Below, piece by piece: positions 417 to 62,682 of a stretch of DNA of 64,000 bases (the stretch's first letter is position 1; each line of letters opens with the position of its first letter). The DNA comes from Blepharisma japonicum (lineage: Eukaryota; Ciliophora; Heterotrichea; Heterotrichida; Blepharismidae), in contig CATKHK010000086.1 in assembly GCA_949751835.1 (NCBI GenBank), positions 62,001 to 126,000 of the forward strand, in the 5' to 3' direction. The translations under genes were made by a program, and so were the position numbers. A model generated the notes under the pieces. The model searched no databases, was not told the origin of the DNA, and was given only the letters and a program-made list of their open reading frames with translations.

Positions 417-3400
417 TTACTTTAGGTTGATAAAATATGATTTAACAGTTCTTTTGATTGTGTCTACTTCAACTTCTTTATTAAAAGTAAAATTAAACAT
501 ACCTGGCTTATAGTTCTCAATGATTTCCTTAGTTACTTCGCTGACGTTTATCGACCCAGCTACTCCGTTGCTTTCCATTTTATTAGCAACTAGCACATCA
601 TCTCCATAAATATCATACCTGACAATATTAGTTCCTGCAATCCCACCAATTATTTTCCCAGTGTGTATTCCTATTCTCATCCCAAGTGTTAAAAATAACT
701 CATCATTGACGATACCTATGATTTCTTGTAAAGACTGTGCGAAATTTATCATATTCAAACATTCATTAGCTGGATCTCGGTTGTCATTTCCCATAAGCCC
801 AATTGCGACGTAGCAATCTCCGATTGTGTGAACTTTGTAAACGTTATTTTCAACGCATTTTTTATCGAACCTGGAGTACATTTCTGAAAGCATTCCAACC
901 ACTTCAGAAGCGTTATGGCTAGAAGATCATGCAGTAAATCCTACAATATCAGCGTATAAAATAGTAACATCAGTAAACGTATCAGTATTTGCGACTTCTT
1001 CTTTTAAATTATGATATACATGCGGAGGCATCATTTGTGTCAGCAAATCCTCTGTCTTTCTGAGCTCATTATTCGCATACTCTTCTAACGTATAAAAAAT
1101 CCTTAAATCTTTCTCTCTTGAATAAGTTGTGCATATAATAATTGTCACAAATGATATAGAAAATAATGCATGATGCCGAAGATAATTCACGTCAATTGCG
1201 ATAAGAGAAATCACATAAAACAATGACAAAACGATGGAAAAAAGGAAGGTGCTTTTGAAGAACATAAAAGAGCATTGGCTTGAAATTAAAAGCATGAAAA
1301 GGATATAGATTTCTTTAATTATTTCTGAAGAAGGCTCATTTAAAGCAATATTTGTAACTATGCTTCAAATTAATGAAAGAATATAGCAAATCTCAAGAGT
1401 CCATGCATAAATTTTGCTATTATGAAATTTATGTAAAAACGCTAGCAGAGAACCATATACAAAAGCCTCAACAAGGTAAAAAGCAAGATCAAGATGAGCT
1501 CTCATCCCAGCATTTCCAAATCATGCTAAATGAATAATTTCAATGATAGCCATGAACGCATTGCATATAACAAAGCATAGAAGCCCATAAAATAAAATAG
1601 AATGGTTGCTTTCAATCATATGCTCTCGAATTTCTTTTTCTTTCTCATCTTCATAGAACATAGTGCTAAATATTTTTATAGGCTCAATTACTTTGGTTTC
1701 AGTCCTAACAAAAAGATCGGTTGCATCCATAGCTTCGATAAATTCAGGCATTACTGATGATTGTTTTCTGGCTGCGCTCAATGGGGTAAAGCATTTAAAC
1801 TCGCTAGAGCTTCTCTTAATGATGCATGCACTTGACCCTGCATTGCTAAGCTTTTTTACAGGAATTGTCAAGTTATTTCTAGCTCTGCTTCTTGGTCTAG
1901 AACTAACTGCTTCTCCAAGCTTTACATGAAAAGTCTTCATATCTCCTTTGCCCTTGGCTTTTACAGTTTGTTTGCTGAATTGCAGGCCATTCCTTTCATC
2001 TAGGTGCTTATATGTAGCTTTAGAAATTTGTACAGTGTCAGGCACTGTTATGGTTGAGGCCATCCTACTTGCAGTATTTACTGTATCTCCTACCAAAGAA
2101 AATTGAGGCTTATGGAAGCCTACAACACCAGCGACAACAGGTCCTGTATGGATTCCTATCTTAACTTGTAGCTGCTTTTCTTTTCTTAGTCTGACTTTTT
2201 TTGCAGCACTAATAAGGCCTAATCCCATTTCAATTGCTCTCCTTGAATGTGAGACTTCTCTAAACACAGGCGAAATTTCTGCCTCGCTGTCATTTAGCCC
2301 TCCACAGGCCATGTATACTTTTCCAACTGTCTCAATTTTAGTCATACCTGTCGACTCACATACAGCGTCAAATTTCTTAAAAATATCATCAATAAAATAC
2401 GATAGTTCCGTATGTGGGTAGTCAGAAACAATCTGTTCGAAATCACAGATCTCGCAGAATAAAACTGTCACAACTCCTTGATCTTCGGCTATATACCTGC
2501 ATCCATCCTTCACCCTTTTCCTTACAAAAGCTGGCAAAACCACATTGAGAACTTGCAAAGATTTGTCAACTTCAATTTCTACCTTTTTCAACAAAACATA
2601 ACGTTTTCTGTTCCAGTTTTCTATTGAGTGGCCTATCAAGGAAGATACTATGATAAGGGAAATATATAAAATGATAAATTCCAAGCAGCAAACCACAGCG
2701 TCAGAATAATCTAATTTGTCAAAAAATTCATAAGAAACAAGAATTGTTATAATTATTGATGAAAGAATAGTAGAAGTTACCATCTCAAACCATAAAAGAC
2801 TGGTCCCAATAAGAAATAAAGGAGCTCAGTTGGTAAATATTATCACATCAAAAACACCGTATACAGTTTTTGCAATAATTATAATGATGATGTTAAAAAG
2901 CCTTGTAAAAACAATAATGGATTTTAAATAAATCTGGAAATAATCAGTAAAAAGAACCATTATCAAGATAAAATAGATAATCACACAGCTTATCATAAAT
3001 GGGAGATAGTCTTGAGGATTGTCTGCATCGAAATAAGAATCAATTAGAAAATCAATGAGTAGCAGGTATAAAGAAGCCATCATAAGTCTGTAAGCTTTTA
3101 TGTTGTTAGCCTTGATTTCATCCATATATTGAGCTTCTCGGCTCACAGACGTGAATTTTAAAGTTATTCCGTTGATCCCAAAGCTTGTCCGGTTTTCTCG
3201 ATAATTTTTTGTCTTTTTATAGATAGCTTGCAGGTTGTTTTGGAAGGTTTCAATTTTCGACTTTACTTTGACTATCAAATTATTTTCAGTGGCGTTTACA
3301 TAATCTGCCAAACTTGGGAGGAATAGCATCGACCAAGCTTTAATACCATAAGAAATTGCAGAAATCCCAAGCTGCCCCATAATAATATACAGTACAAGTA

Positions 3401-6400
3401 GCCCTGACTCATTAAGCTCATCTATCGTCCCATACCTACTATCTTTTTCATTAATTGATGATACATTAACCACAAAAGCCAAAAATCCAATAGATAGGAA
3501 TTGAGATGCAAAGGTTCATATAGTGAAAGAAGAAGTTTCTATTAAAGTCGTCACGAGTGTTGTTGAAGTCATTGCTATATATATTGTCCATTCTAAACCA
3601 TAAAGACTTAATATAAATCCATCTCCATTAACTATTTCTACTGTATAAATGGGTAAAAAAATAATCAGAGAATGGATCAGTGATAAGCCAAAAATAGATA
3701 AAAACTGCCATTTGGAAAGCAGAGTATTCTGAAGAAGAGTGGAGTATACTTGTGGGTATTTAAAAATTTGTTCTTTATTTAAGTCCTTGTCTCACATACC
3801 TACCGTAATTTTTGGAATTAAGGTAAATACAAAAAGATAGCAACCTATTAGGCCTTCTCCAAATAGCATATAGGAGGACGAATGTCCCGTTATTGTATAC
3901 CAAAACAGAATTCAAACAAGCAGAAAATTAGTGAAATACATCATCAATACCATTTTTGCTGCTCGAATATAAAACCAATGACCATGACAAAGCAGTAATT
4001 CTTTTAGTAGCGCAAAACTTTCTATTGAGATATGCCCAGAATATGCAGTTCTTGTCCCTTTTATCCCAACACCAACGTGCGCTTTTTGTATCATTCCAAC
4101 ATCACATTGACTGTCTCCAATTGCCAAAAAAATAGGATTGTAAGAAAAATTCAACCTCAAAAATTTTGCAATTTTTGCTTTATCGCTTGGTAAAAATGAA
4201 TAAAAGCACACACTTTGCGCTGCACATAATAAAGCCGCAAAGTATTTTCTGTTTTCTTCAGATCTTAAGCCAAATTCTAGTCCACTTCTATCTATACACA
4301 GTGTAAAATTTGTAATGTCATAAATAGGGAGACTAAAAATAGGAGTTTCTAAGTTTTCTGGGGCAATTTGAGCAACAATTGGCACTCGATGCTTCCTTTC
4401 ACAAGGAAGTGTTGACATCTGAGTTAGATGGGTACTTCTTTTAGAGTTCATTTTATCATATTTATCATATGATAAGCTTGCAAAGCTATCTTCAGGAGAA
4501 ACTTGGCAATGGTCAGTCTTCAAGTGCATATGCTCATCTGTTTGAGAAGTCAGAAAATTTTTCCTGATTTGGGTTATCATTTCTAATTTGCAGTCTAATT
4601 CTGTAGAAAAATCAGATAATCGGACTATTTTGGAATCAGGATCAAACATCTTTGCAGCAACTCCTGCACAAAAAGAATTATCTTCACCGTCACCACTGAC
4701 CATCCAAAATTTTATTCCTGCATTTGTGAGTGCTGTGACTGTTTCTTTTGTTTCGTCAAGAACTTTGTCTTCAAGACCTAAGATTCCTAAGAAAACTAGT
4801 CCACTTTCTAAATTGAAAAATATATCTTCAATTTTGCCTTCACTATTTACTGGAGAAATTTTAGCTATGTTGTATTCGTATTTAAATTCTTCAAGCTCAG
4901 GATCACTTAAAATTCGATATCCAAGAAATACTGTTTTTTTCCCAGATAGCTGAGATTCATATCCATTGCTCTCTATATAATGTTTAAATTTAGCTGAAAC
5001 ATTAAATGATCGTAGCATTTCTGCTTTTGTGCCTTTAACATACAAGATGGTTTCACCTTTAAAATTATCTTTAACAATGATCCTGGATTTTTGCATTTTT
5101 TCAGAGTATCCTTTTAAAGTAATGATATCAAGCAAAATTTCTTGGTTAAAAAGCGTTAGAGTCGCCTTTTCTTTTGTTGCTCCAATTATTTCTAATCCTA
5201 AGCTACTACTTGTGTCAACCATAGTTTTGTCTTCCATCGATCAAGTATTGCAGCACATCTGCCCAGTTGTTCATGATTGGTGGCATACGCCCATGCACAT
5301 AACAAAATAATAAGCAAGTGGGTATTCATCTTTATATGATAAGAGCTCACTTCTAAGGTCAAAAAAACTTTTGTAATCATATATATCGGCCATCATTTCT
5401 CTTTCAGTCTCTAGGTGAGGAGTAGGCTCGGTGTCAAGCATTGGTTTATCCCTAATATAAGTTTCCCCGTCCATGATGCAAATTGGTAGCTCCACTTCAT
5501 TCGAGGTTAATGTACCTGTTTTATCTGTAAGAATATACTCAACTTGGCCTAATTCTTCGCTAACTTTTAATGAGTTAAATTTAATCCCTGGATTATTCTT
5601 AGAGACACCGTGCGTGAAGAAAAATTGAATAAGTTTCATAGAGATAAGCAGGGATGGAGGAGTTAGCCTACGAAATAATAAGATTGTGTTTATTAGCAAG
5701 TTTCAAGTATTATCACCATATTTCAAGCCAAAATCAAAAATATTTACCATCACTGCTATAAATGTAAGTAAAATTGTAAGAATCAATATATAGAAGACAA
5801 TTTTGTTGATTTTTTTTTCTAAAAGAGATAAATGCGCATATCTTCTCTTGAATTTTTTAATTTCTCTATTTGTGTACACTACAACCCCAATAATCCAGTC
5901 AATCTCCAACAATTTTGAGCCACTTTTAATATAATTAATTTCATTAAGAGAGGTTGGCTTGGGGCTTGTTTTCAGTCTAATTGAGCCCCAAAATTTAAAG
6001 CTTGGGTTTTCAGGAACTTTAATTACAACATTCAATTTATTTAATTCCGTAATATTTTCACTTAAATCATGGGATTTTATCACGATTTTTGTTTCTTTTA
6101 CAGGCTTTTTGATATCATATTGAACTTCTCCTATTATATCAGTGACGTCTACATAGAATTTTGTTTTGTTTTCCCATGTACATATGACAATCATATCAGC
6201 TGGAGCTTTTTGGTCCTTGTGAAGAATAACAACATCGCCCACACAGATATGCTTGTTTAGTTTAATTATATCGCCATCATTTGTCAATATTTGGTATTCT
6301 CGATTATTTATTTCACTGTCGAACTTGTGTCTTCTTAAGTCATGAATTCCATCTGCAATAATTCGAATTAGAAGGATTATGCAAAATGGAAGTACATCTG

Positions 6401-6641
6401 TGAGAGCACCTTCTAAAGAATTCAAATTAGATAAGTCAATAATCATTACAACCAAAAACCACGAGTACCAAAGTTGATGAAATTGCTCAAAAACATTTTT
6501 CGGTATGAAATTTCAAAAATTATAGCGAGCAGTTGTTATTTCATTATTGCGCGATCAGTGTGTAGAAAAATTGCAATTTAGCAAGTGGATTGTTCTAAAT
6601 TCTTTTGGCTTATCCTTGGCATTGCTGTTTTGGCTAGGCAT
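417..6641 (-). CDS. Guanylyl cyclase with N-terminal P4-ATPase-like domain, copy 1
   Basis: Single frame of 2074 residues when TGA is read as Trp. The start ATG (6639-6641) is followed by the P4-ATPase N-terminal signature (ITTARYNFWNFIPKNVFEQF). The flippase-like half carries the phosphorylation motif DKTGTLT (Asp about residue 373) and paired membrane segments. Other ATPase motifs are eroded: DGET-equivalent IGEV, KGAD-equivalent KGTK, TGDK-equivalent SGDG, GDGxND changed to GDSQCD. Two cyclase domains follow, each after a membrane block: C1 (about 1385-1580; FCEICDFE, KIETVGKVYM, GDTVNTASRM) and C2 (about 1885-2074; YADIVGFT, HTIGDCY). C2 holds both metal-binding Asp. C1 holds the purine-selecting Glu/Ser and the Asn/Arg transition-state residues. 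This is the inverted mammalian adenylyl cyclase topology known for ciliate and apicomplexan guanylyl cyclases. It makes cGMP at a membrane. It lies 343 bp downstream of copy 2. Confidence 0.93.
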
Positions 6642-6984: not shown

Positions 6985-9900
6985 CTAAATTATGAGAAAC
7001 GGCTTAACTGATCGTTTTATTGCATCAATCTCGACCTCTTCACGAGGTTCAAACTTAAACATTCCTGGCTTATAGTTTTCAATTAAGTTTTTTGTTGTTT
7101 CGCTAACATTAATCCAGCCAGGAATTCCGTTGCTTTCCATTTTATTCGCGATAACCACGTCATCTCCATATATATCATACCTAACTATATTAGTCCCAGC
7201 AATTCCTCCAATAATATTTCCTGTATGGACTCCAATTCTCATTGATAAATTTAAAAATAATTCTTTGTTCACATCATCAATAATCGTATTTAATGATTGT
7301 GCAAAATTTATTATATTTAAGCATTCTCTTGCAGGATCTCTATTATCATTCCCCACAAATCCTATCGCCACATAGCAATCTCCAATTGTATGGACCTTAT
7401 ATACATTATTTTCTAAACATTTTTTATCAAATCTTGTATACACCTCAGAAAGCATGCCAATTACCTCACTAGCATTATGATCAGAAGACCAAGCGGTAAA
7501 CCCAGCAATATCAGCATATAAAATAGTGACATCCATTATGGTGTCAGTATTTGCCACTTCTTCTTTTAAATTACGATACACATGAGGTGGCATCATCTGT
7601 GTAAGCAGATTTTCAGTCTTTTTCAGCTCTTTATTGGCATATTGTTCTAATGCGAAAGAAGTCCGCAAATCGTCTTCTCTATGATAAGATGTAAATAATG
7701 AAACAGCTACGAAAAATATTGTAAATGGGATGTGGTGGCGTAGGTAATTATAGTCAATTACAATTAAGGTAATTATATGAAGGATAGATACTAGGATTGT
7801 TGCAAGAAAAGTGTTCTTAAAAAAACTGCAGGAGCATTGATTCATTGCGAGGATCATAAAAAGGGCATATGCTTCACTAACAATTTCATCATAAATATTT
7901 TTTGACCTAATATTTAAAAGTACATTCCATACAATAGCTATCAAATAAAAAAGCTGTAAAAGCCATGCAAAAAAGTATTTTTTATAATTTCGTTTCAGAA
8001 AAAATAAAATTCCAGAGAAAGTAAGACATTGAACTAAATAAAAAGTAGTATCAAGATAAAAATCTTCTTCATCTGTATCAAATATTGCATAAAATAAACT
8101 AAAGAATGCCAATAGAGCATTGCATACAGCAATGATTAAAATTCCTCCTGCTAAAATTGGGTAACTACTCTCTGTCATCTGAAGCCTTAGTGTTTTTTCT
8201 TTTTCATTTTCAAAAAATCTTCATGATAGTAACCGTACTGGCTCAATAACACTTGATTCTTTTCTTTCAAAAAGTTCAGTAGGGTCTTCTAAGTCCAGTT
8301 CAGAAAATACCACTGACTGTCTTTTCATTGCTGATATCCCAGTGTGAGGAGTTTCAGTAACTTTTTTAGGTGAATGAGTTACGCCTAATTCCGGCATTGA
8401 AAAATAATAATTAGGGGGATGGTGATTTATAATGACTTCTTGGAATGCGCTAGGCTTTACATAGTGAGTTTTCATAAAGCCTTTTCCTTTGACTTGTATA
8501 GTTTGGGTTTTGAATTTCAAGCTGGTTTTGTCTGTAAGATGTCGGTAAGTTTCTTCAGAAATTTGGATTTTGTCTGGCTTCAGAATGGTGGATGCCATGC
8601 GACTTGCAGTATTTACAGTATCCCCAACAAGTGAAAATTGAGGTTTATGAAATCCAACTACACCAGCTACCACAGTTCCAGTATGGATGCCAACTTTGAC
8701 TTGCAAACCTTTTCCTTTGCGTAGTCTAATCTTTTTGGCAGCACTTATAAGTCCTAAGCCCATTTCAATTGCCCTCCTTGTGTGGGAGACTGCTCGCATT
8801 GATGCGCAAATTTCTTGCTCACTGTCATTTAGCCCTGCACAAGCCATATAAACTTTACCAACGGTTTCGATTTTGGTGACTCCAGTCGATTCGCATACAA
8901 TATCAAATTTTTTATAAATGTCATCTATAAAATATGAAATTTCTGTTATAGGATATGTAGAAATTATTTCTTCAAAATCACAAACTTCACAAAATATCAC
9001 TGTTACCATGCCTTGATCTTCTGCAATATACCGACATCCATCTCTCACCCTTTTTCTTACAAATGCAGGCAAGACGACATTTAGAACGTGTTGGGATTTT
9101 TCAACCTCTATTTCGACCTTTTTCATCAGCATGTATCGCCTTCTGTTGGATCTTTCTGCAAAGTATGCTATAAAAGCAGCAAAAAGTGTCAATGATATGA
9201 AAAGGACAGAAAATTGTAAAGATAGAATCAAACTCTTGTGGTAAGGGACATTTTTTGTTAAATAAACGATTTCTAAGGCAATATATACAGGAGTAACTAT
9301 AGCAGAAATGGAAACCATTTCGATTCAAAAAATGCTGGTGCCGATAATAAAGAGTGGTGGCCAGCTAAAAAATACTATGTTATCAGTCACATTGTAAATA
9401 AATCCTGCTAATGATAATAATGCCATGCAATAAACACGCAGCGAAATAATAATAATTTTTTGATTGCTATGAAAATATCTTGTAAAAGTAATAATTGTCA
9501 GAAAAACATATACCGAAATATTTATAACCATAAAGGTCAAATAGCTATGCTTATCACTGGCATCAAAATAAGAATCAATTAAAAAAATCACTATTAAAGT
9601 ATCCAGCAAAAGTATTAAAAGCTTATAATTTTTTGTGTGGCTTCCTCTATTTTCATCAACATATTGTGCTTCTCTCATTTCTGAAATGAATTTCATAGTA
9701 ATTTTATTTAAGTCAAAAGAATCGCTCAACATGCTAATGTTTTTTGTTTTCTTATAAATCGCTTCTAAATTTTTTTGAAAAATTTCAAATTTTGATCTAA
9801 TCTTTACAGATAATTGAAAATTTTTCATAGCTTTGATGAAATCGACAAGGGTTGGGAGAAATAAAATTACACTTATTTTTCATGCATAAATAACTAAAAA

Positions 9901-12900
9901 GCATAGACTTAAGGTCAGTAAAATATAGAGGAAAAATAAATAGGAATTTTTAGCCATTTCTAGAGCTCCTGAGATATCATTATTGCTGAAATAAGAGGTT
10001 AGAGTAGAATAGAGGATTAAGAGTCCAATAGAAATCAAGTGAGAACTTATAGTCCATCGATTGTAAGTCTGAGTTTCATTAAGGATAAATAATAAAGATG
10101 CCCCTGTGATAGAAAAATAAATTAGCCACTCCATCATTGCCAAACTGATTGTTGTGCCATATTCATCAATGATAGTAAAATATAAAATAGGGACATAAAT
10201 TATCCCTGCTTGGATAAAAGAAATAATAAGGAGAAATAAAATTTGCCATAATGATAGCAGCGTATTTTTCATATAAATGCTATAAACTTGAGGGTATTTA
10301 GTCAATTGCTCTCTATCTAAATCCTCATCAAAAATCCCAACAATCAGTTTTGGAAGTAAAATAAAGACCACAAGGAAAATTGCAATCATTTCATCCCCAA
10401 ATAGCTCAAAGCCATATGATCTTCCTACAACACAATGCAAAAACATTATAAATATCAATACAAAGTTGTTGTAAAAGGTTATAAGGACCATATTGGACAT
10501 CCTTATATAATTTCAATGCCCTTCAAATAGTAGTAATTCTCTCAACTGAGAAAACCTAGATATTGATAAAAGCCCTGCATAGGCTATAGAAGAATTAGCC
10601 ATCCCAATTCCTATATGGGCTTCTTGAATCATTCCAAAGTCGCTTTTTCCTTCTCCAATAGCAAGAAATGTTGGGTTATAAGAAAAATTATTTCTTAAAA
10701 ATTTCGCGATTTTTGTCTTATCTTCAGGTAAAAGAGAGTAAAAGCACACACTTTTAGCAGCAGCCAGTAGAATAGCGAAATATTTCCGATTTTCTTCAGA
10801 ACTTAATGCAAAATTTAATGCACTTCTATCTACAGAGAGAGTAAAGTCTATTAGTTCATGGATAGAAGGCTTGAAGGAAGGAATTTTTATTTGTGATTTA
10901 GCGAGCTGAGATACAATTCTTGGGACTCTATGCAAGCGATGGGTTTTTATTTCACTTTTCGCGGTGGAATTGCTGCTGTTGTGCTTGGAATCTTCATCAG
11001 ATGAAACACTTACTAAGCTTTCTTCTAAGTTATGATAGACTTGATTAATGTCCATGCTTTGGTCTTTGACTGAAATATCTAGGTTGATAAAGGTTGATTT
11101 TATTTGGTTAATCATTTCAAGCATGCAGTCAAGCTCTGAAGTAATTTCTGAAAGCTTTACGATTTTAGCATCTTGTTCAATTAATTTAGCAGAAATGCCT
11201 GCGCAAATTGAATTTTCTTCTGAATCTCCACTAAGCATCCAAAATTTTATTCCAGCGCTTGAGAGAATAGAAACAGTTTCTTTCGTGTCTTCATAGACTT
11301 TATCTTCAAGTCCGATTATTCCTAAAAAGTTTAAATCAGCTTCTAAATTAATAAAGGTGTCTTCGATTTTCCCATCACTATTTAAAGGTGATAATTTAGC
11401 GATTCTGTATTTATAGTCAAATTCTTCAATTTCTTCCTCATTTAGAATTTTATATCCTAAATAAAATAGCTTTTTGCCATTCAGCTTGCTTTCATAAGCA
11501 TTATTTTCTAAGTAGTGTCTAAGATTTGGAGCCAGTACAAGTGATTTCAGCATTTCAGCTTTTGTTCCTTTCACATACAAAATAATTTCATTTTTAAAAG
11601 AATCCTTAACAATAATTCTGGATTTATGTGTTTTTTCGGAGTAGCTTTTCGAATTAATAACATTTAGTGAAATTTCTGTTTCAAAACAGCTTAAATTGAT
11701 GGTTTTATTTTCTCTGGAATTTATGCTGAGTCCTAAGTCCTCACTTGCTTCTATCATAGCTTCATCTTCTATTGACAAAACATTTCAGTCCATTTCTTCA
11801 GTCGTATTTGATTGATTGCAGATAGCCATACACATAACAAAATAGTAAGGTAGCGAAAATTCCTCTTTTTTTGATCTTTGAAGTTCATCTTTTAAGTCAA
11901 TAAATGCACTGAAATTTGAAATATCTAATAGCGATTTGCTAGCTTCGTTATTCTTTTTAGTACTGAGAGAGTCCCTTAGATAAGTCACTCCATCTAATAC
12001 AAAAATCGATATATGCACATCATTTGTTGTAATTGTTCCTGTTTTGTCAGTTAAAATATACTCAATTTGTCCTAATTCCTCGCAAAAATCTAAGCTATTG
12101 AACTGAATTCCAGGATTATTTTTTGAAATTTTAATGATAAAACTAATTTGAATTAATTTGATGCAGATCAAGAGAACAGGAGGTACAAGCCCATGGAAAA
12201 GAATAATAGCGTTAATTGTAAAGCCTTGGGAAGTATCACCAAAATAAATCCCAAATCCATAAATGCAGATCATGTTACTTAAGAATACCAATAAAAAAGA
12301 CAAAATCATCATATAAAAAATCACTTTATTGATACTTTTTTCAAATAAAGATAAAGAGTATGAAGGATGCTGATTTTGCTTTAGCTCGCCATTTGTGTAT
12401 ATAACTAGTCCATAAATTCATGCAATCCCTAAAATTTTTGATCCGCTACTTATATAATTTATTTCCCTCAATTCCACTGACTTTGGGTTTGTTTTCAGTT
12501 TAATTGATGCTCAAAAATCGCAGCTGGAATCCTCAGGTACTTTTATTGTTGCTGAACATTTTGAAAGTTCATTAATGGTCTCAAAAATATCATTTGAATT
12601 AGATGCATATCTAGTTTCTTTTACAGGTTTTTTTACATCAAATTGGGCTTCTCCAGTTATATCAGTCATATCTACATGGAATTTTTGTTTATAATTGCTC
12701 GTACACAGCACTATTAAATCTGCAGGAGCTATATCATTTCTTTTAAGTAGCACTAGATCTCCCACACATATTTCTTTGCTTTTCTTATTTATTGTGTCAT
12801 CTATCGTTAATATTTTATATTCTCGATTATTTAGCTCATTATCGAACTTATGCCTCCTTATATCGAAGTATCCGTCTGACAAGAGCCTTAATATGAGTAA

Positions 12901-13173
12901 AATGCAAAATGGAATCAAAACTAAAAGAGAATTCTCTATGCGCCCGTAATAAGATAATTCAAGAATCAAAATAAACAAAAACCAAACGTATCATAACTGG
13001 TGGAATTGTTCAAAAATATTTTTTGGGATAAAATTTCAAGCTGTATAGTGGGCTGTTATTATGGAATTGCTATGAGATAAATGTTCTGTGTTTTGGTTGT
13101 ATAATAAGTGGATTGCGCGGATTTCCATAGATTTTTCCAGTTGTAAGCTGTCTTCATTATTGTCATTGATCAT
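6985..13173 (-). CDS. Guanylyl cyclase with N-terminal P4-ATPase-like domain, copy 2
   Basis: One frame of 2062 residues with TGA as Trp, ending at TAG 6985-6987. The start ATG is 13171-13173, upstream of the P4-ATPase N-terminal signature (TAWNFIPKNIFEQFHQLW). The domain order equals copy 1: ATPase-like half with DKTGTIT (Asp about 376), membrane block, C1 (about 1385-1580; FCEVCDFE, KIETVGKVYM, GDTVNTASRM), membrane block, C2 (about 1880-2062; YADIAGFT, HTIGDCY, YDIYGDDV). ATPase motifs are eroded: TGEA in the actuator, KGTK, SGDSEEN, and GEGKSD where GDGxND is expected. Both metal Asp of C2 are intact, so cGMP synthesis is expected while ion or lipid pumping is doubtful. It is very close to copy 1, its head-to-tail neighbour, indicating tandem duplication. 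A 16-nt GT..AG string near the end could skip the stop, but its donor is GTT and not GTA, so I kept the TAG. Confidence 0.93.
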
Positions 13174-26174: not shown

Positions 26175-26333
26175 TTAAGATGATCAATTTTTATGAATCT
26201 AGTTAAAGAAATACCAAAGATAATTTTTTGGATTCAAATAAATGTGAATTTCTATAACTCATTTGAGGAGAAAATTGAGCTAAGATTTATTGCAATTTAA
26301 CTGAAATTTAAAATTCCCACAAAATAATAAACA

Positions 26334-27878
26334 ATGGAAAATGATTTAATCGAAATATCCTCTAGCGAGTCCTTAGAAGGCACTTCCTTAAGTGAAGAAG
26401 AAATAATGGAAACTAATTATTACAATGAAATTTATGAAGATGGAAACGATTGGATTGAAATTGCTGAGTATGGCAGAGAAGATACTATTCCACCTATGGA
26501 TCCATCTCCAAATATTTCTCAATTTACTACAATTTCTCCAATAGACATTTTTAGGGGCTTTTTCGAAGACAATATTATCAACGAAATCATAAAAAATTCT
26601 AACTTTTTCGCAGAGAGATTGCGTGCCAAGCCAAATCCATGATACAAAATCAAAGATTTAACCCCATTAACAAAGCTTGAGTTTGAAAATTGGTTAGCAG
26701 TTGTCATAATGACAGGCCTAGTAAGCACTCCAAAAGAAACAGACTATTGATCCAGAGATCCACTCTTTCGCAATCCAGCGATTTCTCGCATAATGAGTTC
26801 TTCAAGGTATAAAAGCATTCAACTTATGCTTCGATTATCTCCAGTGCATTATAAAGATGGGGTAAACAAACTAGAGCCCGTATATACCATTTTTCGTGAA
26901 AATTGTAAAAAAAATTATTTTTTAGGAAAATTCATATCAATAAAAGAATCCGCTGTAAAATACAAAGATAAGCATCATCCGGCTAAATACACTCCAAACC
27001 AGCCTATAAAATGGGATTTTAAAGTTTATGGTTTATATGATTCTGCTACAGGATATATGTGAAATTTCGAAATTTATCCTTATAAGAAAAAAGGAGTTTG
27101 GAAAAATCTTTCTACAATAGCCCCAGTTAGTTTGCTGGAATCTTTGAAGGTGAACGCTAATAAATATTATTTAGTATTTGATAAATTATGCCCAAATCTT
27201 GACTTGCTTAATGTTTTATCAGATTTAGGGTTTTCTACAACTGGAACTATTAAGAAAAACATAAAAGAGGTCCCGAGAGCTGAGATAAGTAAGAAAAACT
27301 CAGTTCAGTTCTTTTTAAAAGGAAGTTTATTATTTTGTGCTTTATATGAAAAACAGCCATATTACTTCTTCTCAAATATAGAAGGAACTCAGCATAAGCT
27401 TGTGAAACGATTTAACAAAGTGGGTACCAAATTTATGACTGAAAAGCCTGTCCTTTGCATAAAGCATGCGCTGGGAATGGGAGGCTCAGAGTATTTCAAT
27501 AAGCTTACCAAGCCATATTCAACAGCCAGAAAGTCTAAAAGATGGTGAAAGGCAAGCTTTATCTATATGCTAGAAATCGCTATTGCAAATTCTTTTATTA
27601 TTTACAAATACTATGCAGAAAGAGGTTTTGCTGTGCATATGACTTTTGTGGTGTTTCAAAGAACATTAGCAAGCCAGCTCATTAATATAATAGAAAAAAA
27701 GCCAGAAGCAACACCTAAAGAAATGGCAAAACAAACTAATTTCGAGAAAATAAAACCACAGGCTTGCAGTTATTGTAGAGAAATGGGAAACCATGATACG
27801 ACAGCTTTTAATTGCTGTGCGAAGTGCAAGAAGCCGATACATATAAGATGCTATGAATTTCATATTTGTTTAGCTTAA
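26334..27878 (+). CDS. Domesticated PiggyBac transposase-like protein (PgmL type), catalytic triad lost
   Basis: 514 residues with TGA as Trp. An acidic N-terminus is followed by the PiggyBac DDE_Tnp_1_7 domain: FRGFFEDNIINEII, LTKLEFENWLAVVIMTGL, DYWSRDPLF and FISIKESAVKYK are typical of the family. The catalytic Asp are mostly lost: first Asp replaced by Lys204 (ISIDE to ISIKE), second kept (VFDKL, Asp283), third replaced by Glu386 (MGGVD to MGGSE). The C-terminus is a Cys/His-rich domain (CSYCREMG, CCAKCKKPIHIRC), as in other PiggyBac proteins. No terminal repeats or TTAA-flanked element surround it and the frame is intact, so it is a host gene. Ciliate PiggyMac proteins cut DNA during macronuclear development, and Pgm-like paralogues with dead triads assist them. 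I infer such a role here. Confidence 0.88.
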
Positions 27879-27909
27879 CTTATGAATTTCATATTTGTTT
27901 AGCTTAACT
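27852..27909. repeat. Perfect 29-bp tandem duplication at convergent gene ends
   Basis: Units 27852-27880 and 27881-27909 are identical. The first encodes the last residues and stop of the PiggyBac-like gene on the plus strand. The second contains the stop of the minus-strand coiled-coil gene. Each unit contains a TTAA that provides a stop codon in either direction. See the finding. Confidence 0.95.
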
Positions 27910-29631
27910 TATATTTTTCTTTAATATTTCAATTTCTGCTTGAAGTTCTCCGTTTTTTTGGCATTGGATTTTTAATTCATTTGAAATTTCTTTATATTTG
28001 GATTCAGTCTGAGAAAGTTGGGTTTCAAGCTTATGAACTGATTTGTAGTGGTCTCCAGATAAGCATAGGCAAAGCTGGTCATTTTCTTTCCTGAGCCTAT
28101 CTAAAGCTTCATTTTTGCCTTGGATTAGCTTTTTCAGCTCATCTCTTTCCAAAGTGGTTTTTCTCAAAGCTTCGCCTTGAGCTCGACTTTCATGTTTGAG
28201 CTTGTTAAGTTGCCTTGTCAAGTTAACCACTTCAATAGCGAATTGGTTTTCTTGCTCCCCAAGTGGTCTGTCCATATCAATACTTTTTTTGGTTGTTGCT
28301 TTTTTCTGGACAGCTCCTTTTGGTTTTGGCTTCAGTTTATTTATTTCTTCTTGCATACTGTTAATTTGATCATATGCAGATAAACTTAGCTCTTCGAGCT
28401 CTCCACATTTTTTCTTATATTCTTCAAGTTCAGCTTTTATGGTTTCTAATTCTGAGCAAGCTTCGCATTCTTCTTTGATTGGATTTAATTTTTTTTCATC
28501 TTTGTTTTGGAGATCATTTATTTGCTTTTGAGCAGATTCTAAAAGTCGATAAGCTCTCAAGCATTCTTCTTCAGTTCTTTTTTTGTCTTCTATGCATGAA
28601 ATAAGCTCTTTATTGATTTTTTCAATTTCTGATTGTTGCTTTATTAGCTGGTTTTTAAGCAGTTTTGACTCTTCAAGGGTTTCTTTTTCAACATTTTTTA
28701 GCTTGGATTCCCAAGACTTTTGGTGCTCAAGCATATCCAAAAGACTATTCAACTCTTCATTTTTAGACTCTAAAAGAGCGGCAAGTTCTTCTTTTTCAAA
28801 TTCAGCTTTTTCTTTGGCTTCTTTAGCTTGGAATATTTGTTCAGTTAATTCTATATATCTATCTGTTTGCTTCAAAAAGAAAGCTGGGCTAGATAATGCA
28901 GTCCATGATAGTTTTTTATTAAGAATTTGCTTCTTTTCAAGGAAAGTGATGAGCCTTGTAAATCCATTTGCAAAAGATTTAAGTCTAAATTCTACAGGAA
29001 GGAGGGAAAAGTCTTTTGGGAGACCTTCAATGCTTTTATTTGTGCCAAAATTTGGTAGTTTTGAGCCGGATTTTGTGTCATTTGAAGCATTGTCTAGAAA
29101 TTTTTGTGCAAAAATTGAGAAATGCTTGGAAAATAAGCTGTGAAGAATTGAGCAAGCAATATATTGTCTAGAAAAAGAATTTACTTTGTTGACCATCATA
29201 AGTGCTGAATTTATTTGGGTTTGGGAGGTCAATTTTATTGAATTCATGTGCCATTCATTATAAAAGTGCTTTAAACTTTTTCGCTTTGACTTTATAATGA
29301 TTTTCTTTAATAATTTTTCTTTCGGCTCCAATATTACAGGGGTATAGTTTTTTAGGTTTTTAAATGTAGCCTTAACTTTTCGCTGAAAATAAGACTGTAG
29401 CAAGTTCAAGCCAAACTGATATTTTCGCTTATTTTCTCTTATAGTTGCTTCTGAAAGTTTCTCTTTGCCATTAAAAGAGAAACTAAATGGATTTTCATCA
29501 GAATTTGCAATTGAAATTTCTTTAGATTTAAACCTTCCAGCTGGGGATTCACAATCAGTTGCTGGCGATTCTAGCTTATCAAGGTAAGATTCAAGCATTT
29601 TTCGATTAGGCTTATAAGGGTAATCCTCCAT
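27904..29631 (-). CDS. Coiled-coil protein, unknown
   Basis: 575 residues, ATG 29629-29631, stop TAA inside the second 29-bp repeat. Residues 1-240 are basic and mixed (LLQSYFQRKVKATFKNLKN; SLKHFYNEWHMNSIK, reminiscent of Sfi1/centrin-binding W-containing repeats but not convincing). From about 245 to the end there is a long coiled coil rich in Glu, Lys and Leu, broken at about 440-460. It has no signal peptide or membrane segment. A cytoskeletal or basal-body role is a guess from composition only. It is convergent with the PiggyBac-like gene (25 bp between stops). Confidence 0.8.
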   Translation of the reverse strand: MEDYPYKPNRKMLESYLDKLESPATDCESPAGRFKSKEISIANSDENPFSFSFNGKEKLSEATIRENKRKYQFGLNLLQSYFQRKVKATFKNLKNYTPVILEPKEKLLKKIIIKSKRKSLKHFYNEWHMNSIKLTSQTQINSALMMVNKVNSFSRQYIACSILHSLFSKHFSIFAQKFLDNASNDTKSGSKLPNFGTNKSIEGLPKDFSLLPVEFRLKSFANGFTRLITFLEKKQILNKKLSWTALSSPAFFLKQTDRYIELTEQIFQAKEAKEKAEFEKEELAALLESKNEELNSLLDMLEHQKSWESKLKNVEKETLEESKLLKNQLIKQQSEIEKINKELISCIEDKKRTEEECLRAYRLLESAQKQINDLQNKDEKKLNPIKEECEACSELETIKAELEEYKKKCGELEELSLSAYDQINSMQEEINKLKPKPKGAVQKKATTKKSIDMDRPLGEQENQFAIEVVNLTRQLNKLKHESRAQGEALRKTTLERDELKKLIQGKNEALDRLRKENDQLCLCLSGDHYKSVHKLETQLSQTESKYKEISNELKIQCQKNGELQAEIEILKKNIS

Positions 29632-38676: not shown

Positions 38677-40857
38677 TTATAGCCTTAGATATTGGCTTAA
38701 CACTCTGCATATTGTATCTATGGAAGCAGGTTTTGCAATATAAGACACCATTCCAGATTCGTAACACATTATAACATCTTTGTCTGAGGTATATGCAGTA
38801 TATCCAACAATAGCTGGCATCAAGCTTAATTTGCCTTCTTCATGAAGTTGTTTGATTCTTCTAGTTGACTCTCACCCATCCATTACTGGCATGCTGCAAT
38901 CCATAAAGACAAGTTTAAAAGGATTCATTTTAGCATCTTGCTTCATCACTAGTTTGAGTGCTTTTTTACCATTCACGGCTTCTAAGTAATGTATTTTTAA
39001 TTTATTTAAAACTGCAGCTAATATTTGTCTGTTTCAATCTGTGTCATCTACTATCAAAACCTGTGGGTACTCATATGATTCACAACTAATAAAGCTTTTT
39101 AGTCTCATTATAGGCTCAAGTATTTCATCTGAACAGTCAATAGCAGAAAAGCTCTGTCTTGTATCTGCTGTATAGTTAACTTTAAAGGAAAACACAGTGC
39201 CTCTTCCTTGTACTGAGTGAAGATAAATATCGCCTCCTCCAAGTTCTCGGACTAGAAGACTTGACAAATGCAGTCCCAGCCCGCTGCCATGACTGGCCAT
39301 CCCATCAGTATCATAGCTGTTAAAAAGCTTAAAAATCTGGTTAAATCTTTCTTCTGGTATTCCAATGCCTGTGTCACTTATGCTAAATTTCAGCCTATCA
39401 TCTTCTGATAAAGACACGCATAGCTCGATGCGCCCCTTGTTTGTAAATCTGCATAAAGGTTACTTGGTGGCGTTACTTAAAAAATTGATTAAAACTTGGC
39501 ATATTCTCTCAGGATCATTGTAAATAATTTCAGGAATTTGAGGGTCTATTCGAGTTTTCAGCTCAATACCTTTACGCAATGCAGTTAATTCAAATAAATC
39601 GCAACACTCATTAATTTTGTCTCGTATAATGAATTCTTGCTTTCTAAGACTGAACATTCCTTTCATTAATTGCATATAGTCTAATATATCATTAATAAAA
39701 TACATCAGAATTCGTGCAGAAATTCTTATATGCTGAACATTTGCTCTTACTTGTGAAAATTCATTAGTCTGCTCGTAAATTTGATTTGCAAAAGAAATAA
39801 TAGCAGCAATAGGAGTTCTAAGCTCATGAGAAATAGTCCTCAGCATAAATTTTTTTACTTTGTCCTCTGTTTCTCTTTGCTCAAGCTCTATCAACTGACC
39901 TGAATTCGAGGCAGTGACAAGAATAATTTCTTCATCTTCGACCATAATTCTTTTTATTTTTCATTGTAAGCTGAGCTCTCTTTCTTTAACAATCCCCAAT
40001 ATCATTTCTTCTCTAAGATTCAAATTATTATATGATTTAAGATCTTCAATTAAACTGTCAGAGTCTGGATTAATATTTTGAAACTTCTTATTTTTCATAT
40101 ACCTCAGCCCAATCAATTTTTCAATAAAATTTTCTTTATCACAATTTAAATAAGTCTTCATTTTTTCGTTAATTAATTCTGGAGCAAGCTGTGAGCTAAA
40201 AATTGCTAAGCCATCAGGAATCACATTTAATATAATTCCAAGCCGTTTTTCAGCCTTTTCTAGCTTTTTCCTATAAGAATATCGCCCATAGCTCACTCTC
40301 CTTACTAGATATTCTTTAGTGGTGTGGATAGTTAAGCAGCTCATAAAAGCAATTATTTGTGTAGGAGAGGTTATTCCATCGCTACCAAACAGGATCGCGA
40401 CTCCATATCACAGCACGATATGCTTTATTAGAGCTAGATTGACAAAGAATAGCGAATTTAAAAAAGAAGATTCAAATAAAACTGTAATTAGCGTTGACTC
40501 CATAAAAAGAATGCTTTTTGAATCTTTGTCGAATATATTCCCTACTATAAATAAAGCTGAGTTAAATAATTCAGTGGATATAATTGCGCAAAACACATCA
40601 AAGTTGTTGCACTTTATTTTTGTTTTATTGAGATGATAAGCTATTATAAAAGTGACAATTGTCATCAAAAAACTTGTATAGCTAAAAATAAAAGATTTAT
40701 CCATAATAAAAGCAGATATAAATTTCATTGAATTTCCAATGACTACTAAAAGTACTGCTATTTGTTTGTATTTTTCAATATTCTCTAAGAACTCTTCTTT
40801 CCACCACTCTTCGACTGATTCAGCCATATATATTTTATACCATTCTGGCAAGTGCAT
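38677..40857 (-). CDS. Hybrid sensor histidine kinase with receiver domain
   Basis: 721 residues after removing a 15-nt intron (39449-39463) inside the ATPase domain. Order: short N-terminus, about six hydrophobic membrane segments (30-200), a PAS-like stretch (EKRLGIILNVIPDGLAIFSS), HisKA dimerisation helix with phospho-acceptor His344 (MLRTISHELRTPIAAIIS), HATPase_c (N box QVLINFLSNATKFTNKG, G1 SDTGIGIPEE, G2 GSGLGLHLSS) and a C-terminal receiver (VLIVDDTDWNRQ; MDCSMPVMDG with phospho-acceptor Asp648; AKPAS lysine). All catalytic residues are present. It passes phosphate from His to Asp within one protein. Splicing is needed: the unspliced frame stops at a TAA inside the intron. Confidence 0.93.
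39449..39463 (-). other. 15-nt intron (histidine kinase gene)
   Basis: GTAACCTTTATGCAG on the minus strand splits a Lys codon (AA/A) in the N box. Removing it restores NATKFTNKGRIEL, the conserved histidine kinase sequence. Confidence 0.93.
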
Positions 40858-56493: not shown

Positions 56494-59400
56494 ATGGATG
56501 ATACTTCAGATGATAAAAACAGATACAAACTTCGACAAACAACATTGCAATATGACTCTTCCAAAGCAGTAGCCCGTGAAATCGAAATATTTCGAGGCCA
56601 AGGCTACCGAAATAACCTTTACCCAGACAACTCAATAAACACAAATTTGTATTCATATTTCATTCTTATCCCATACATTTTATTCTCCCAATTTAAAAGA
56701 TTAGGCTATATTTGATATCTAATTATCACAATCCTACAATACATCCCATATGATCTTTCTCCTATGCAAAGTGAGTCAACAACAACTATTTTTGCGATTT
56801 CTTTATTTTTGAATTTGGTGCATGATATATTTGCTAATTACTTTAAACGAAAGAGCGATACTTGTGTAAATTCAAGAGACTCTCTTGTTTGAAGTGAAAG
56901 CAGTAAACAGTTTATACATAAAAAATGAGAAGACATAAGGGTGGGATATGTGATTGTAGTTAAAAACAATGAAGAAGTTCCAGCAGATTTAATTTTGATA
57001 GCAACAAGTGACTCAGAAGGCTCTTGTTTCTTTGAGACTTTTAATTTAGATGGATCTACAAGACTGAGCATGAGAAAACCTGTCTCAGATTTTGCAAATA
57101 TTTTTGAAAGCAAAAATTATGAAAAAGCAATTCATAGGATTTTTAAGTTGGATAATGCAATTCTAAAAATTGATCATCCAAATGACAATTATCATACAGT
57201 ATATGGTAGCATAAAACTGGTGAAATACCCTAAAGCGATTCCTCTTTCTATTGAAAATTTTGTATTACGAGGCTCGAAGCTGAAAAATACTGAGTGAATA
57301 ATGGGGATTGTAGTTTATACAGGCCCAGACACAAAAATCATGATAAACTCCCAAGAATTATGGCATAGGAGTAAGGATGTTGAAAAAGTAATGAATAAAT
57401 ACATTTTCTTAGTCCTTATGATACTTTCTGTTATGATATTCATTTTATGAATTCTTTCTATCACTCACTCATACAAATATGAGAAGGCTTACAAATATTT
57501 TACAGGCTCAGACCCTTCATCATCTTGAATGGACATATTAAGCTTTATCATATTATTTAGTTATTTAATCCCAATCAATTATTATGGTATCATTGATTTA
57601 ATTGGTTTAATACAATTCTGATTTATAAGACAAGATTTATACTTTTATGATAATAAAAAAAATGAGACAATTATAAGCAGCAGTCTGCGACTAAATGAAG
57701 ATTTAGGAAAGGTTAAATATATTTTTACAGATAAAACTGGGACTCTTACTGAGAATAAAATGGAATTAAAATATTTTGTAATTAAAGGCAAAAGTTATGA
57801 TATTCAAGAAATGCCTATCCTATTTAGTAGCAAATTATATGATACCACATTAGATTTATTAAAAGTTTTAGCAATATGCCATACTGTTAGTCCGTTGTCG
57901 ACAAATGAAGATATTAAATATAAAGGTGAATCCCTTGATGAAGAAGCATTAATAATGGCAGCTTTTACGTCTGGTGTTGAATATAAAAATACAAAAGAAA
58001 ATATCATAGAGCTAAAAATCTTTGGCACAACAAAATTTTATAAAATGTATGGACTTAACAAATTCGATCCTGAAAGAAAAATCATGTCAATAGTAGTAAA
58101 AGAACTTAATTGTGATAAATATCCAGTTTTACTCTGCAAAGGAGCCGATGATGTATTATGCACAAAATCATTAAACTCAGAAAAATATATAAAGAAATTA
58201 ACAAAAGAAATCGAAAACCATACCAAAAATGGGCTAAGAGTGCTTGCAATTGCTAGGAAAACGTTAACTGAAGAAGAGGCTAATAAATTTGAGGATCAAT
58301 GAATAGCTGCAAAAAATGCAATGACAAATAGTGAATTGAGACTAAAAGAAGTAGCAAGTTTATATGAAAAAGATCTGTATATTATTGGAGCTGTTGCGAT
58401 TGAGGATAAAATTCAAGATGGTGTCTCAAATACTGTAAGCACTCTTCGTAAAGCAGGGATCAAAATATGAATGATGACAGGCGATAGACGTGAAACTTCT
58501 ATAAGCACAGCATACGCTTCTAAACTATTCGACAGCGAAACTGAAATTATACAATTATCTTATTCTCATGAAAAATTCTTATTCGATATTCTTGAAAAGG
58601 AGTATAACAATAGGTTTCTACCACAAGAGTCAGGTAGTTTTATACAGAAATCTGATTCTGCTAGCATAAAAGAATCAGAATCAAAAACTAGTATTGAGCT
58701 AGAACAAGACTGCATATTTATAAAAAGTAATGAATCGTATAATTATGGAATAGCTATAGAAGGGCTATCACTTGATGCTATTATGAGAAATGTCACACAT
58801 TTGCAATATTTTTTAACCCTTGGCTGTGCCGCTAAAGCTGTTATTATATATAGAACAACTCCAGCTCAAAAAGCAAGGGTTATTAAGATATTTAAAGAAA
58901 ATATTTTATCTCACCCAATAACGCTGGCAGTTGGTGATGGAGCAAATGATTGCGCTATGATTAATGAAGCAAATATAGGCATTGGGATCTTAGGAAAAGA
59001 AGGATGCCAAGCAACAAAATGCAGTGACTTTGCAATTGCAAATTTCAAATACCTAGTTCCTTTGCTGCAGGTTTATGGCCACTGAAACTGTATAAGGATG
59101 TCAGAAATTAATCAAATTGTAATTTACACTAGTTCTTTATTGACATTCTTATTATTTTATTACTCATTTGCCAACATGTATTCGGGTGGCTTTTTATATG
59201 AATCATGAATGATTACTTTTTTTTATAGCGCACTTATCTTTATCCCAATTATATGACTTGGAGTATTCGATAAAGACTATGAAAAAGAAAAATTAATTAA
59301 AAAACCTGAACTCTATAATAGGGGGGATTTTATGTCTAAGAAAAGTTTATCATATATAGTGCTTGGAGCTTTTCAGGCACTTTTAATATTTTTATTAGCA

Positions 59401-62400
59401 GTGTTTTTTACTACAGAGAATTTTGATTTTTATGGTCATTCTGAAGACTATTTCACAACTGGTTCTATTTGCTTCTTAATAATTCTTCAAGTAATCCTAC
59501 TTGAGTTGTGAGTTATAGCTAAATCATGAAGCCTCCTGTACTTCATTGCTTCTATTTCTGTTTTATTATTTGCATTTTCCATTGTATTTTTACTGGACTA
59601 CGGATCTGCCAATAATTATTATATGCAAGGGACTTCAACTAAAATTTTTTCAAATCCTATCAATTTAGTAATTATATTTACTGTCCCTTTAATTTGTTTG
59701 GTATTTAGGCTTTCATTTCATTATTTAGCTAGCCTTAAGCAACGCCAAAATTCTTTGAGAAATAAAAAAATATTTAAAAGCACAGCACTTATCAGCTCAG
59801 ATAATATTCAAGAAGATTTTAAACACTTATTTGATTTTAAAAATTATGACACTACATGAGATAAGAAAGCAGTTATACTTAACTATAAAATGAAGCCAGT
59901 TACAATGCGATTTAGCAATCCATACTTAGAAAATGAATTTCAGGCTGATTCAGTAAAAGAACACAAATCTTCCAGAAAAATATATGTTCTTGTCAGCCTA
60001 ATTGTATTCTTTATAATATTCATTCTTAGCAGTTTTTTTACAAATAATGGCAATGAGCACATCATTTTAAGAGCTTTAGAAATTATCACGTTAATATTGA
60101 TTTTTTTAATTTATATTTGTTTATGGCTCCAGCAATTCGAAAAATATCATTCTTATCTGATAATATCCTGGATTGGGCTATCTTTGTTATTTAAAATATT
60201 TATTGATTATGGAATAGGCTATGATATGACACTATCAAGTGTTCTTGTGTCATTTTATACCTTTATCGTGACGAAAAATTACTCTTATTGCATTTTTTTA
60301 TTAAATATTGCAAATTTCATAGTTTATGCTGTATGAATGTTTAAAATAGAAATCAAGATGTTTCCATTGGTTGATGGGATATTGAATGGCTTTGTTTATT
60401 TGTTTTTGGGATCTGGAATGGTATTTCTAAACGCAATGATAAGCTATGCATATGAAAGAGATAAAAAACTTCAGTATCTTTTTATTGAGACCGTAAAATT
60501 TCAATACAACAAAGGCGTAGAAATATTATCAAATTTATTTCCACATTTTATCAAAGACAAAGTTAAAAATGGAGAAAGATCAATTGTGTTAGACCAACCT
60601 GATGTCACGGTGATGTTTTGTGATATTTATCAATTTGATAGCATCTGTGCAACGCATTCTCCTAGCGAGTTAATAGATCTTCTTGATGCCTATTTTGCTT
60701 TGTTAGATAAACTATGCGATGATTTTGGTGTAGCGAAGATAGAGACAGTAAATAAAACATTCATGACATGTGCAGGGATAGCACAAGATGAGGTATTGCG
60801 CCCAAAAACAAAGCTGACCAAAAATCATGGGATGAGAACAGTAGAACTTGCCTTAGCAATTCTAGATAAACTCCAGCATGTCTATCTGAAAACTGGTGAA
60901 AAACTAAGGGTAAAGATAGGAATAAACTCAGGTCCAGTAATAGCAGGTGTTGTAGGGCTTCATAAACCTCAGTTTTCTCTAGTTGGAGATACTGTAAACA
61001 CTGCTAGTAGGATGATGAGCACACTTAAAGAGCCTGATTCTATACAAATTTCTAAGTCAACATATGAATTAGTCAGAGACGGCGCTTTTGATTTTATTTG
61101 GAATAAAATTGAAGCTAAAGGTAAAGGGATTCTTGAAACTTATCTAGTACAAAAGCAAACAGTGCTAAGCCAATTACGTGAGAGAGTAGATTCTCATAAT
61201 AATGGCTCAACCGCTGATCAAGATAATTCCTGAATCGTTAAGAGAGAAGCCACTAAAACTGAAGGCTTTATTGCAAGGAAAAACAACAGATTTTATAGTG
61301 TAAGAGGAGGTGAAAAATTCAAAAAAACTATTAATATGACATCAATATTAAACGAAATGATAGAACGATCTGGGCTATCTAAGCAAGAGCTTGGATTTGT
61401 AGAAGGAATAAAGCTCACTCGATTTCGCTATAAAACTGAAGAAGAAATCGAATTAAGGCTAAGAGTTATCGACAAGTTAGAGTTGGCAATAAAATATAAA
61501 ATCTGAGGAGAAGTGATATTGATTTTACTTGCTACAATTGTGCATCTATTTAGGTATATTTTTACAGATGAAGAAGACATAATTTTTGGAGTTGTTTCAA
61601 TAAAAATATTGATTTTGCTATCGCTTATAGGTGTTTTAGCAAAATATAAAAGACTTCATATAAAGATTTTCTTTTCATGAATTTTATTTGCTGGATTTTT
61701 ATCTTTGGGAATTTTGAATGTGATTGCTTTTTATAGCTCACCAAAAAATTGCTGTACTTTAATTACACTAGAAATTCTATTTGAATTGCAACTAATTGGA
61801 AGTGCTTGCTTTCTTCCTTTTGCAAACTTGCTATTCTCCACTTTGCTCCTTACAATCCCCACAATTCTTATTATTTCCTTTAATTTTGACAAAGAAGAAG
61901 CCCTAGAAACAATTATTCCTTTTCTTCTCTATTGCCTCTTAAACATGCTTGCATTGTATAGCAAAGAAAAACAGTCACGAATTACTTTCAATCTCCACAA
62001 GCTCATGAAAAGTGAAATTTCTAAAACCAAAAGGCTACTAAACCAATTAATCCCGCCTCATGCTGTCAGAAATATGATGAATGATCTTGCTACAACTGAC
62101 CGCTTTAATGAAGTTACCATGATTTTCGCTGATATCTGTGGCTTCACTGATTTTTCTTCTACAAGAAACCCAGAAGACGTTGTTTCTATGTTGTCTGGGT
62201 TTTTCACTATTTTTGATAATCTATGCTTAGACCATAATGTATTCAAAGTTCATACAATTGGTGACTGCTACGTCATCATGAGTTTTAGAGATGCACAAAG
62301 CAGAAAAATAGAGAGGAATTTGTTTGAGGAATGTGAAAATATGCTGAATATGGCTTTTGATATGGTAAAAGCTATTAAAGAGATTAATGAAAAAAATATG

Positions 62401-62682
62401 ACAAATCTAAATATGAGAATTGGGATGCATACAGGAGATTTGATAGGAGGGATTACAGGGAATGATATAGTGAGGTATGATATTTATGGACCTGATGTGG
62501 ACATTGCTAATAAAATGGAAAGCAATGGAATGCCTGGAAAGGTGAATGTGAGCGAAGTTACGAAAAAGCTGCTCGAAGAAGGATTTCCTGGGAAATATGG
62601 GTTTGAGTTTAATAAAACCATTATACATAAGCCAGTCAATAGAGCTTTCGAGTCGTATTATGCAAGCTACAACAATTCTTAA
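56494..62682 (+). CDS. Guanylyl cyclase with N-terminal P4-ATPase-like domain, copy 3
   Basis: 2062 residues in one frame with TGA as Trp. The N-terminus is more divergent than in copies 1 and 2 (EIEIFRGQGYRNNLYPDNSI). Its flippase-like half is the least decayed at the hinge: DKTGTLT (Asp about 413), KGADDV, MTGDRRETS and VGDGANDCAM are all near canonical, but the actuator DGET reads LDGST, losing the catalytic Glu that hydrolyses the phosphoenzyme in P4-ATPases. Cyclase C1 (about 1365-1560; FCDIYQFD, KIETVNKTFM, GDTVNTASRM) and C2 (about 1865-2062; FADICGFT, HTIGDCY, YDIYGPDV) have the same inverted topology, with Glu/Ser for guanine selection. Both metal Asp are in C2. It lies far from copies 1 and 2 and on the other strand. 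Confidence 0.92.

Follow-up and report, generated by a model that had tools for sequence, protein, structure and literature searches.

The window analysed here is a 64,000-nucleotide stretch of a Blepharisma japonicum contig (C86:62001-126000), in an assembly of 45.2 Mb and 224 contigs. A PiggyBac-derived gene lies on its forward strand at positions 26334-27878. The frame runs from ATG to TAA and encodes 514 residues, uninterrupted and with no need of an intron, if TGA is read as Trp. Specifically, four in-frame TGA codons correspond to W103, W139, W243, and W405, and the bacterial code splits the same frame into pieces. Other long frames of the window also contain TGA codons. The gene is flanked by ordinary cellular genes, including TSR2 and a gene for a TBC protein.

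The genome resembles a Blepharisma somatic (MAC) genome, with CCCTAACA telomeres, a 15-bp intron, and TGA as Trp. Three units of CCCTAACA in a row match the assembly 168 times (overlapping matches counted), while the reversed control gives 0 matches. Among the 100 matches listed, many lie close to where a contig starts (within about 400 bases) or at the known end of C5 or C6; the outermost 120 bases at both ends of C86 contain no telomere repeat. The 15-bp intron, GTAACCTTTATGCAG, is located at about 39446-39465 on the reverse strand, in a histidine-kinase gene, and its removal rejoins the frames by eye. The published account of the genus gives CCCTAACA as the telomere unit and 15-16 bp as the intron length (PMC9942806).

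Three genes of about 2060 aa are also present in the window, at 417-6641 (-), 6985-13173 (-), and 56494-62682 (+). In a domain scan, those at 417-6641 and 56494-62682 contain a phospholipid-flippase-type P-ATPase joined to two guanylate cyclase domains. Judged by eye, the gene at 6985-13173 appears similar to the other two.

Domain, catalytic triad, and DNA-contact positions

The Pfam profile DDE_Tnp_1_7 (PF13843) matches residues 68-421 of the window protein (26535-27596; C86:88535-89596 in the genome search) over its whole length, 1-349 of 349, with 188.1 bits and E 3.6e-55, far above the curated cut-off of 22.4 bits. With E limited to 10, a search of solved structures gave six distinct sequences, two of which are credible relatives: the Myotis piggyBat transposase (9c0f, E 1.1e-23) and the Trichoplusia ni (moth) piggyBac transposase (6x67, E 3.4e-17). 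A viral_contigs scan for outside relatives and an NCBIfam profile search gave no match. Residues 478-512 (27765-27869) form a C-terminal Cys/His-rich domain, in which C478, C481, C495, C498, H503, C506, and H510 are invariant across the three intact PiggyBac copies of the genome. The original prediction of an intact frame, a full PiggyBac fold, and a Cys-rich C-terminus was thus borne out, for the fold at the level of the profile match.

The catalytic triad is incomplete. Alignment to moth piggyBac places Lys204 (codon AAA, 26943-26945) at the first catalytic Asp, D268; Asp283 (GAT, 27180-27182) at the second, D346; and Glu386 (GAG, 27489-27491) at the third, D447. Alignment to bat piggyBat pairs D243, D315, and D419 with the same three residues, and the residues and numbering predicted for the triad proved exact in both alignments. 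Glu205 does not stand in for the lost first Asp, because moth piggyBac already has a Glu at this position, E269, beside its D268. Judged from the sequence, the window protein has very probably lost DNA cutting. With Asp283 kept and a D-to-E change at 386, residual metal binding is possible.

In moth piggyBac, residues of the omega-loop touch the transposon end, a Gly pair turns along the minor groove, and three insertion-domain residues contact target DNA (PMC7351741). Several of these positions are kept in the window protein. Specifically, omega-loop residues Y283 and K290 are identical (Y219 and K226), and R275 is replaced by a residue of like charge, K211. The Gly pair G444/G445 is kept as G383/G384. 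Of the target contacts, R372 and R376 correspond to residues of like charge, K307 and K311, while K375 is lost (I310). The neighbours of the second Asp, N347 and W348, are lost too (K284 and L285), and so is D450 after the third catalytic position (N389). Separately from these role-assigned positions, moth R460, K461, and W465 are identical in the window protein. As judged by alignment, the catalytic positions are gone, and the DNA-facing positions checked are mostly, not all, kept or alike.

The PiggyBac family: copies, divergence, and flanks

In Blepharisma stoltei, eight somatic PF13843 homologs are described, one with a complete triad (BPgm) and the others designated BPgm-likes, BPgmL1-7 (Singh et al. 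2023, PMC9942806). The assembly studied here has three intact full-length PiggyBac genes, with D-D-D, K-D-E, and K-G-I at the catalytic positions, all with the Cys-rich domain. The D-D-D copy, likely BPgm, lies at C6:283152-284708, and the K-D-E copy is the window gene. The K-G-I copy, hereinafter the second dead copy, has a Glu one place on and lies at C86:176300-177886, about 88 kb along the same contig from the window gene. The C6 copy shares 47% identity with the window protein, and the second dead copy 28%. At the DNA level, the window gene as query recovered its own locus and two partial matches on C6 (64 and 68%).

Eleven further places, on C112, C214, C9, C3, C23, C24, C68, C123, and (three) C5, are hit by PF13843 (E up to 0.001) or by any of the intact proteins (E up to 0.01), among the best candidates scored in the genome search. 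In-frame TAA or TAG is present in at least one matched piece of all 11; several of these matches are weak and cover little sequence (E exceeds 1e-4 for C24 and C68), and tiny introns could account for a few of the stops. Some broken copies retain catalytic residues. A broken C5 copy keeps Asp at all three catalytic columns despite its stops, and the broken C214 copy has Asp at the first and third, the readable ones. In separate tblastn pieces, the first two catalytic places of C9 are Asp, as is the third of C112. At the first place, Asp is found in the C6 copy, in the broken C5 and C214 copies, and in one frame of C9; C112 has Asn; and both intact dead copies have Lys (K204, and the K of VKEV in the second dead copy).

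A tree of five sequences, with moth piggyBac and bat piggyBat as outgroups and the three intact copies as its only ciliate proteins, groups the intact copies together with bootstrap 99 and the window gene with the C6 copy with bootstrap 71. The AU test favours a pairing of the window gene and C6 (0.733) and rejects that of C6 and the second dead copy (0.014). A pairing of the two dead copies, which would bear on shared ancestry of their Lys, is neither preferred nor rejected (0.295). Therefore, one shared loss of the first Asp to Lys and two separate losses both stand. When four broken copies are added, the nine-sequence tree places the window gene near two broken copies with support 38. The C112 and C9 rows of this alignment mix reading frames, because the higher-scoring of overlapping tblastn pieces was kept; their catalytic-column residues there are therefore unreliable, and the placement of both was left unused.

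The window gene differs from the C6 copy at 42.6% of nucleotides and has 0 stops in 514 codons. When the C6 coding sequence was randomly mutated to 10%, 20%, 21%, or 42.6%, stop-free sequences numbered 0/500 in each case, with a mean of 7.8 stops at 10% and 23.3 at 42.6%. The intact frame of the window gene therefore exceeds chance. Differences from C6 at the three codon positions are 0.394, 0.323, and 0.562, the third being highest, with pN of 0.349 and pS of 0.734. The dN/dS is 0.164 for the window gene versus C6 and 0.338 for C6 versus the second dead copy, and dS between the two dead copies is infinite; the value of 0.164 was set aside as proof of selection, because synonymous sites are near saturation.

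Relative-rate tests of the window gene versus C6 with three outgroups (44 v 36, 36 v 28, and 35 v 20) show that the window gene has not changed significantly more than the D-D-D copy (p 0.43, 0.38, and 0.058). The maximum-likelihood branch is longer for the window gene (0.65) than for C6 (0.26), in the direction opposite to the relative-rate null. With part borders set by us, identity to C6 is 27/62 in the N-terminal tail, 63/131 in the first DNA-binding region, 46/101 and 30/54 in the catalytic parts, 37/71 in the insertion, 14/40 in the linker, and 15/35 in the Cys-rich tail. Because identity is distributed across every part, faster decay of the catalytic part is not indicated. At the sequence level, the constraint on the window gene shows a function, without specifying that of a partner in DNA elimination.

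The flanks were compared for element ends. Within 300 bp on each side of the window gene, the best TTAA-bounded inverted match pairs 26203-26223 with 27904-27924, with 12/17 bases matching inside TTAA. This level is reached in 16/3000 random-place controls, 7/2000 controls matched for TTAA number, and 33/2000 Markov-resampled flanks. The second dead copy also scores 12, with unrelated letters and with 44 TTAA pairs versus 12, and the best match of the D-D-D copy is 9. We draw no conclusion from this match: it was chosen after the fact, one arm lies inside the coding region of the neighbour, and the other intact copies lack the same match. The absence of terminal repeats stated in the original prediction holds only in part: the ends are not convincing, yet a match uncommon in controls is present and may be a relic transposon end.

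A perfect 29-bp tandem duplication (27852-27880 and 27881-27909) runs across the stop codon of the PiggyBac gene as far as the stop of a convergent neighbour (27904-29631, -). For units of 20-79 bp, no other perfect adjacent duplication was found within the window. In our reading, the stop codons of the two genes would overlap if the duplication were absent.

Role of the protein and comparison with known systems

The window gene probably encodes a domesticated PiggyBac transposase of the BPgm-like kind, which would take part in DNA elimination alongside BPgm without cutting, as argued from Paramecium experiments together with the constraint described above. Its incomplete triad (K-D-E) occurs beside a complete paralog (D-D-D, on C6) in one genome, as in the BPgm-likes, and the match to the published B. 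stoltei set suggests that it is therefore a BPgm-like protein or an ortholog of one. In Paramecium, PgmLs without a complete triad are reported to form complexes with Pgm and to help its nuclear retention, and knock-down of each PgmL group hinders excision of internal eliminated sequences (IESs) and leads to IES retention (PMC6143343). By analogy, the window protein would assemble with the D-D-D paralog on IES ends while the new macronucleus develops. BPgm would cut, and the window protein would supply DNA binding, geometry of the complex, or nuclear retention, as between PgmL and Pgm. The original prediction had named a Pgm-like protein with a broken triad, and the one D-D-D and two broken-triad intact copies, a pattern like that reported for B. 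stoltei (PMC9942806), support it. A further proposal, that Lys at the first position is an adaptation in which a positive charge replaces the metal ion, so that the IES end is gripped uncut by one holding subunit beside one cutting subunit, is in our view decidedly unlikely.

By analogy, the protein most likely serves the excision complex as a subunit that does not cut. The main rival reading is a DNA-binding regulator: the dead transposase would by itself bind the same or related ends and limit cutting by BPgm, or act at other genomic sites. Consistent with this, the triad is lost while the Cys-rich domain and several of the DNA-contact positions are kept. DNA binding in competition with the active excisase is offered as an alternative role for the incomplete homologs of B. 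stoltei (PMC9942806), and retained DNA binding is reported for PGBD3 (PMC6143343). Action at other genomic sites has been proposed for proteins of the PGBD3 type. Nevertheless, every PgmL group of Paramecium is described as positively required (PMC6143343), which argues against a purely limiting role. Moreover, the Cys-rich domains of Pgm and PgmL are reported to have no detectable DNA binding in vitro, that of Pgm interacting weakly with the histone H3 tail (PMC8086355); the tail of the window protein therefore need not bind DNA. We regard a regulator as unlikely.

It is very unlikely that the gene is a relic, namely a recently inactivated copy heading to a pseudogene with its frame still undecayed. 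The absence of stops at 42.6% divergence, where neutral simulations leave no frame open even at 10%, argues against this, as do the excess of differences at third codon positions, the non-significant relative-rate excess, and the invariant Cys-rich ligands. On the other side are the in-frame stops at 11 further PiggyBac-like places, the position near two broken copies in the nine-sequence tree (support 38, with mixed-frame rows), the branch longer than that of C6, and the weak TTAA-bounded inverted match. An active transposase with an unusual K-D-E site, or with another acidic first ligand such as Glu205, is barely conceivable. The second Asp is kept and the third is Glu, a residue that functions in other DDE enzymes. 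However, Glu205 has its counterpart in moth E269 and hence is not a replacement, and a single triad mutation abolishes the activity of moth piggyBac in vitro (cited in PMC6143343).

The relatives of solved structure, moth piggyBac and bat piggyBat, resemble the window protein in the full-length domain match and in several kept DNA-contact positions. Unlike the window gene, which is K-D-E and has no convincing element ends, they are D-D-D transposases of mobile elements. PgmL1-5 of Paramecium tetraurelia (Bischerour et al. 2018, PMC6143343) are likewise domesticated PiggyBac paralogs with an incomplete triad beside a complete Pgm. They differ in the residues retained: according to that report, PgmL1, 2, 3, and 5 have no conserved Asp and PgmL4 has the first and third, whereas the window protein has the second only. 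The PgmLs were also tested by knock-down. Among the titles listed in a literature search, none reports an interaction or knock-down test of any Blepharisma BPgmL. Of the copies found in this genome, the two intact full-length dead ones are worth a knock-down. Ciliates keep multiple dead PiggyBac proteins alongside a single live excisase, and Paramecium and Blepharisma are only distant relatives.

The closest likeness is to the BPgm-likes of B. stoltei, which share with the window gene a somatic genome, TGA as Trp, PF13843, and an incomplete triad. The published report describes terminal repeats in none of the somatic homologs, dN/dS of 0.0076-0.1351 for incomplete-triad homologs versus BPgm, and short copies with mostly low expression, 'suggestive of pseudogenization', and it includes the BPgmLs in an expression heat map (Fig. 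5B; PMC9942806). The assemblies differ, with 41 Mb in 64 contigs published for B. stoltei against 45.2 Mb in 224 contigs here. A Cys-rich domain is reported for three somatic copies of B. stoltei (PMC9942806) and is likewise present in all three intact copies of this assembly, and the family pattern is the same: three intact copies with the tail, one complete triad, and the rest broken. The window gene is of a type already described within the genus Blepharisma and represents no new kind of system.
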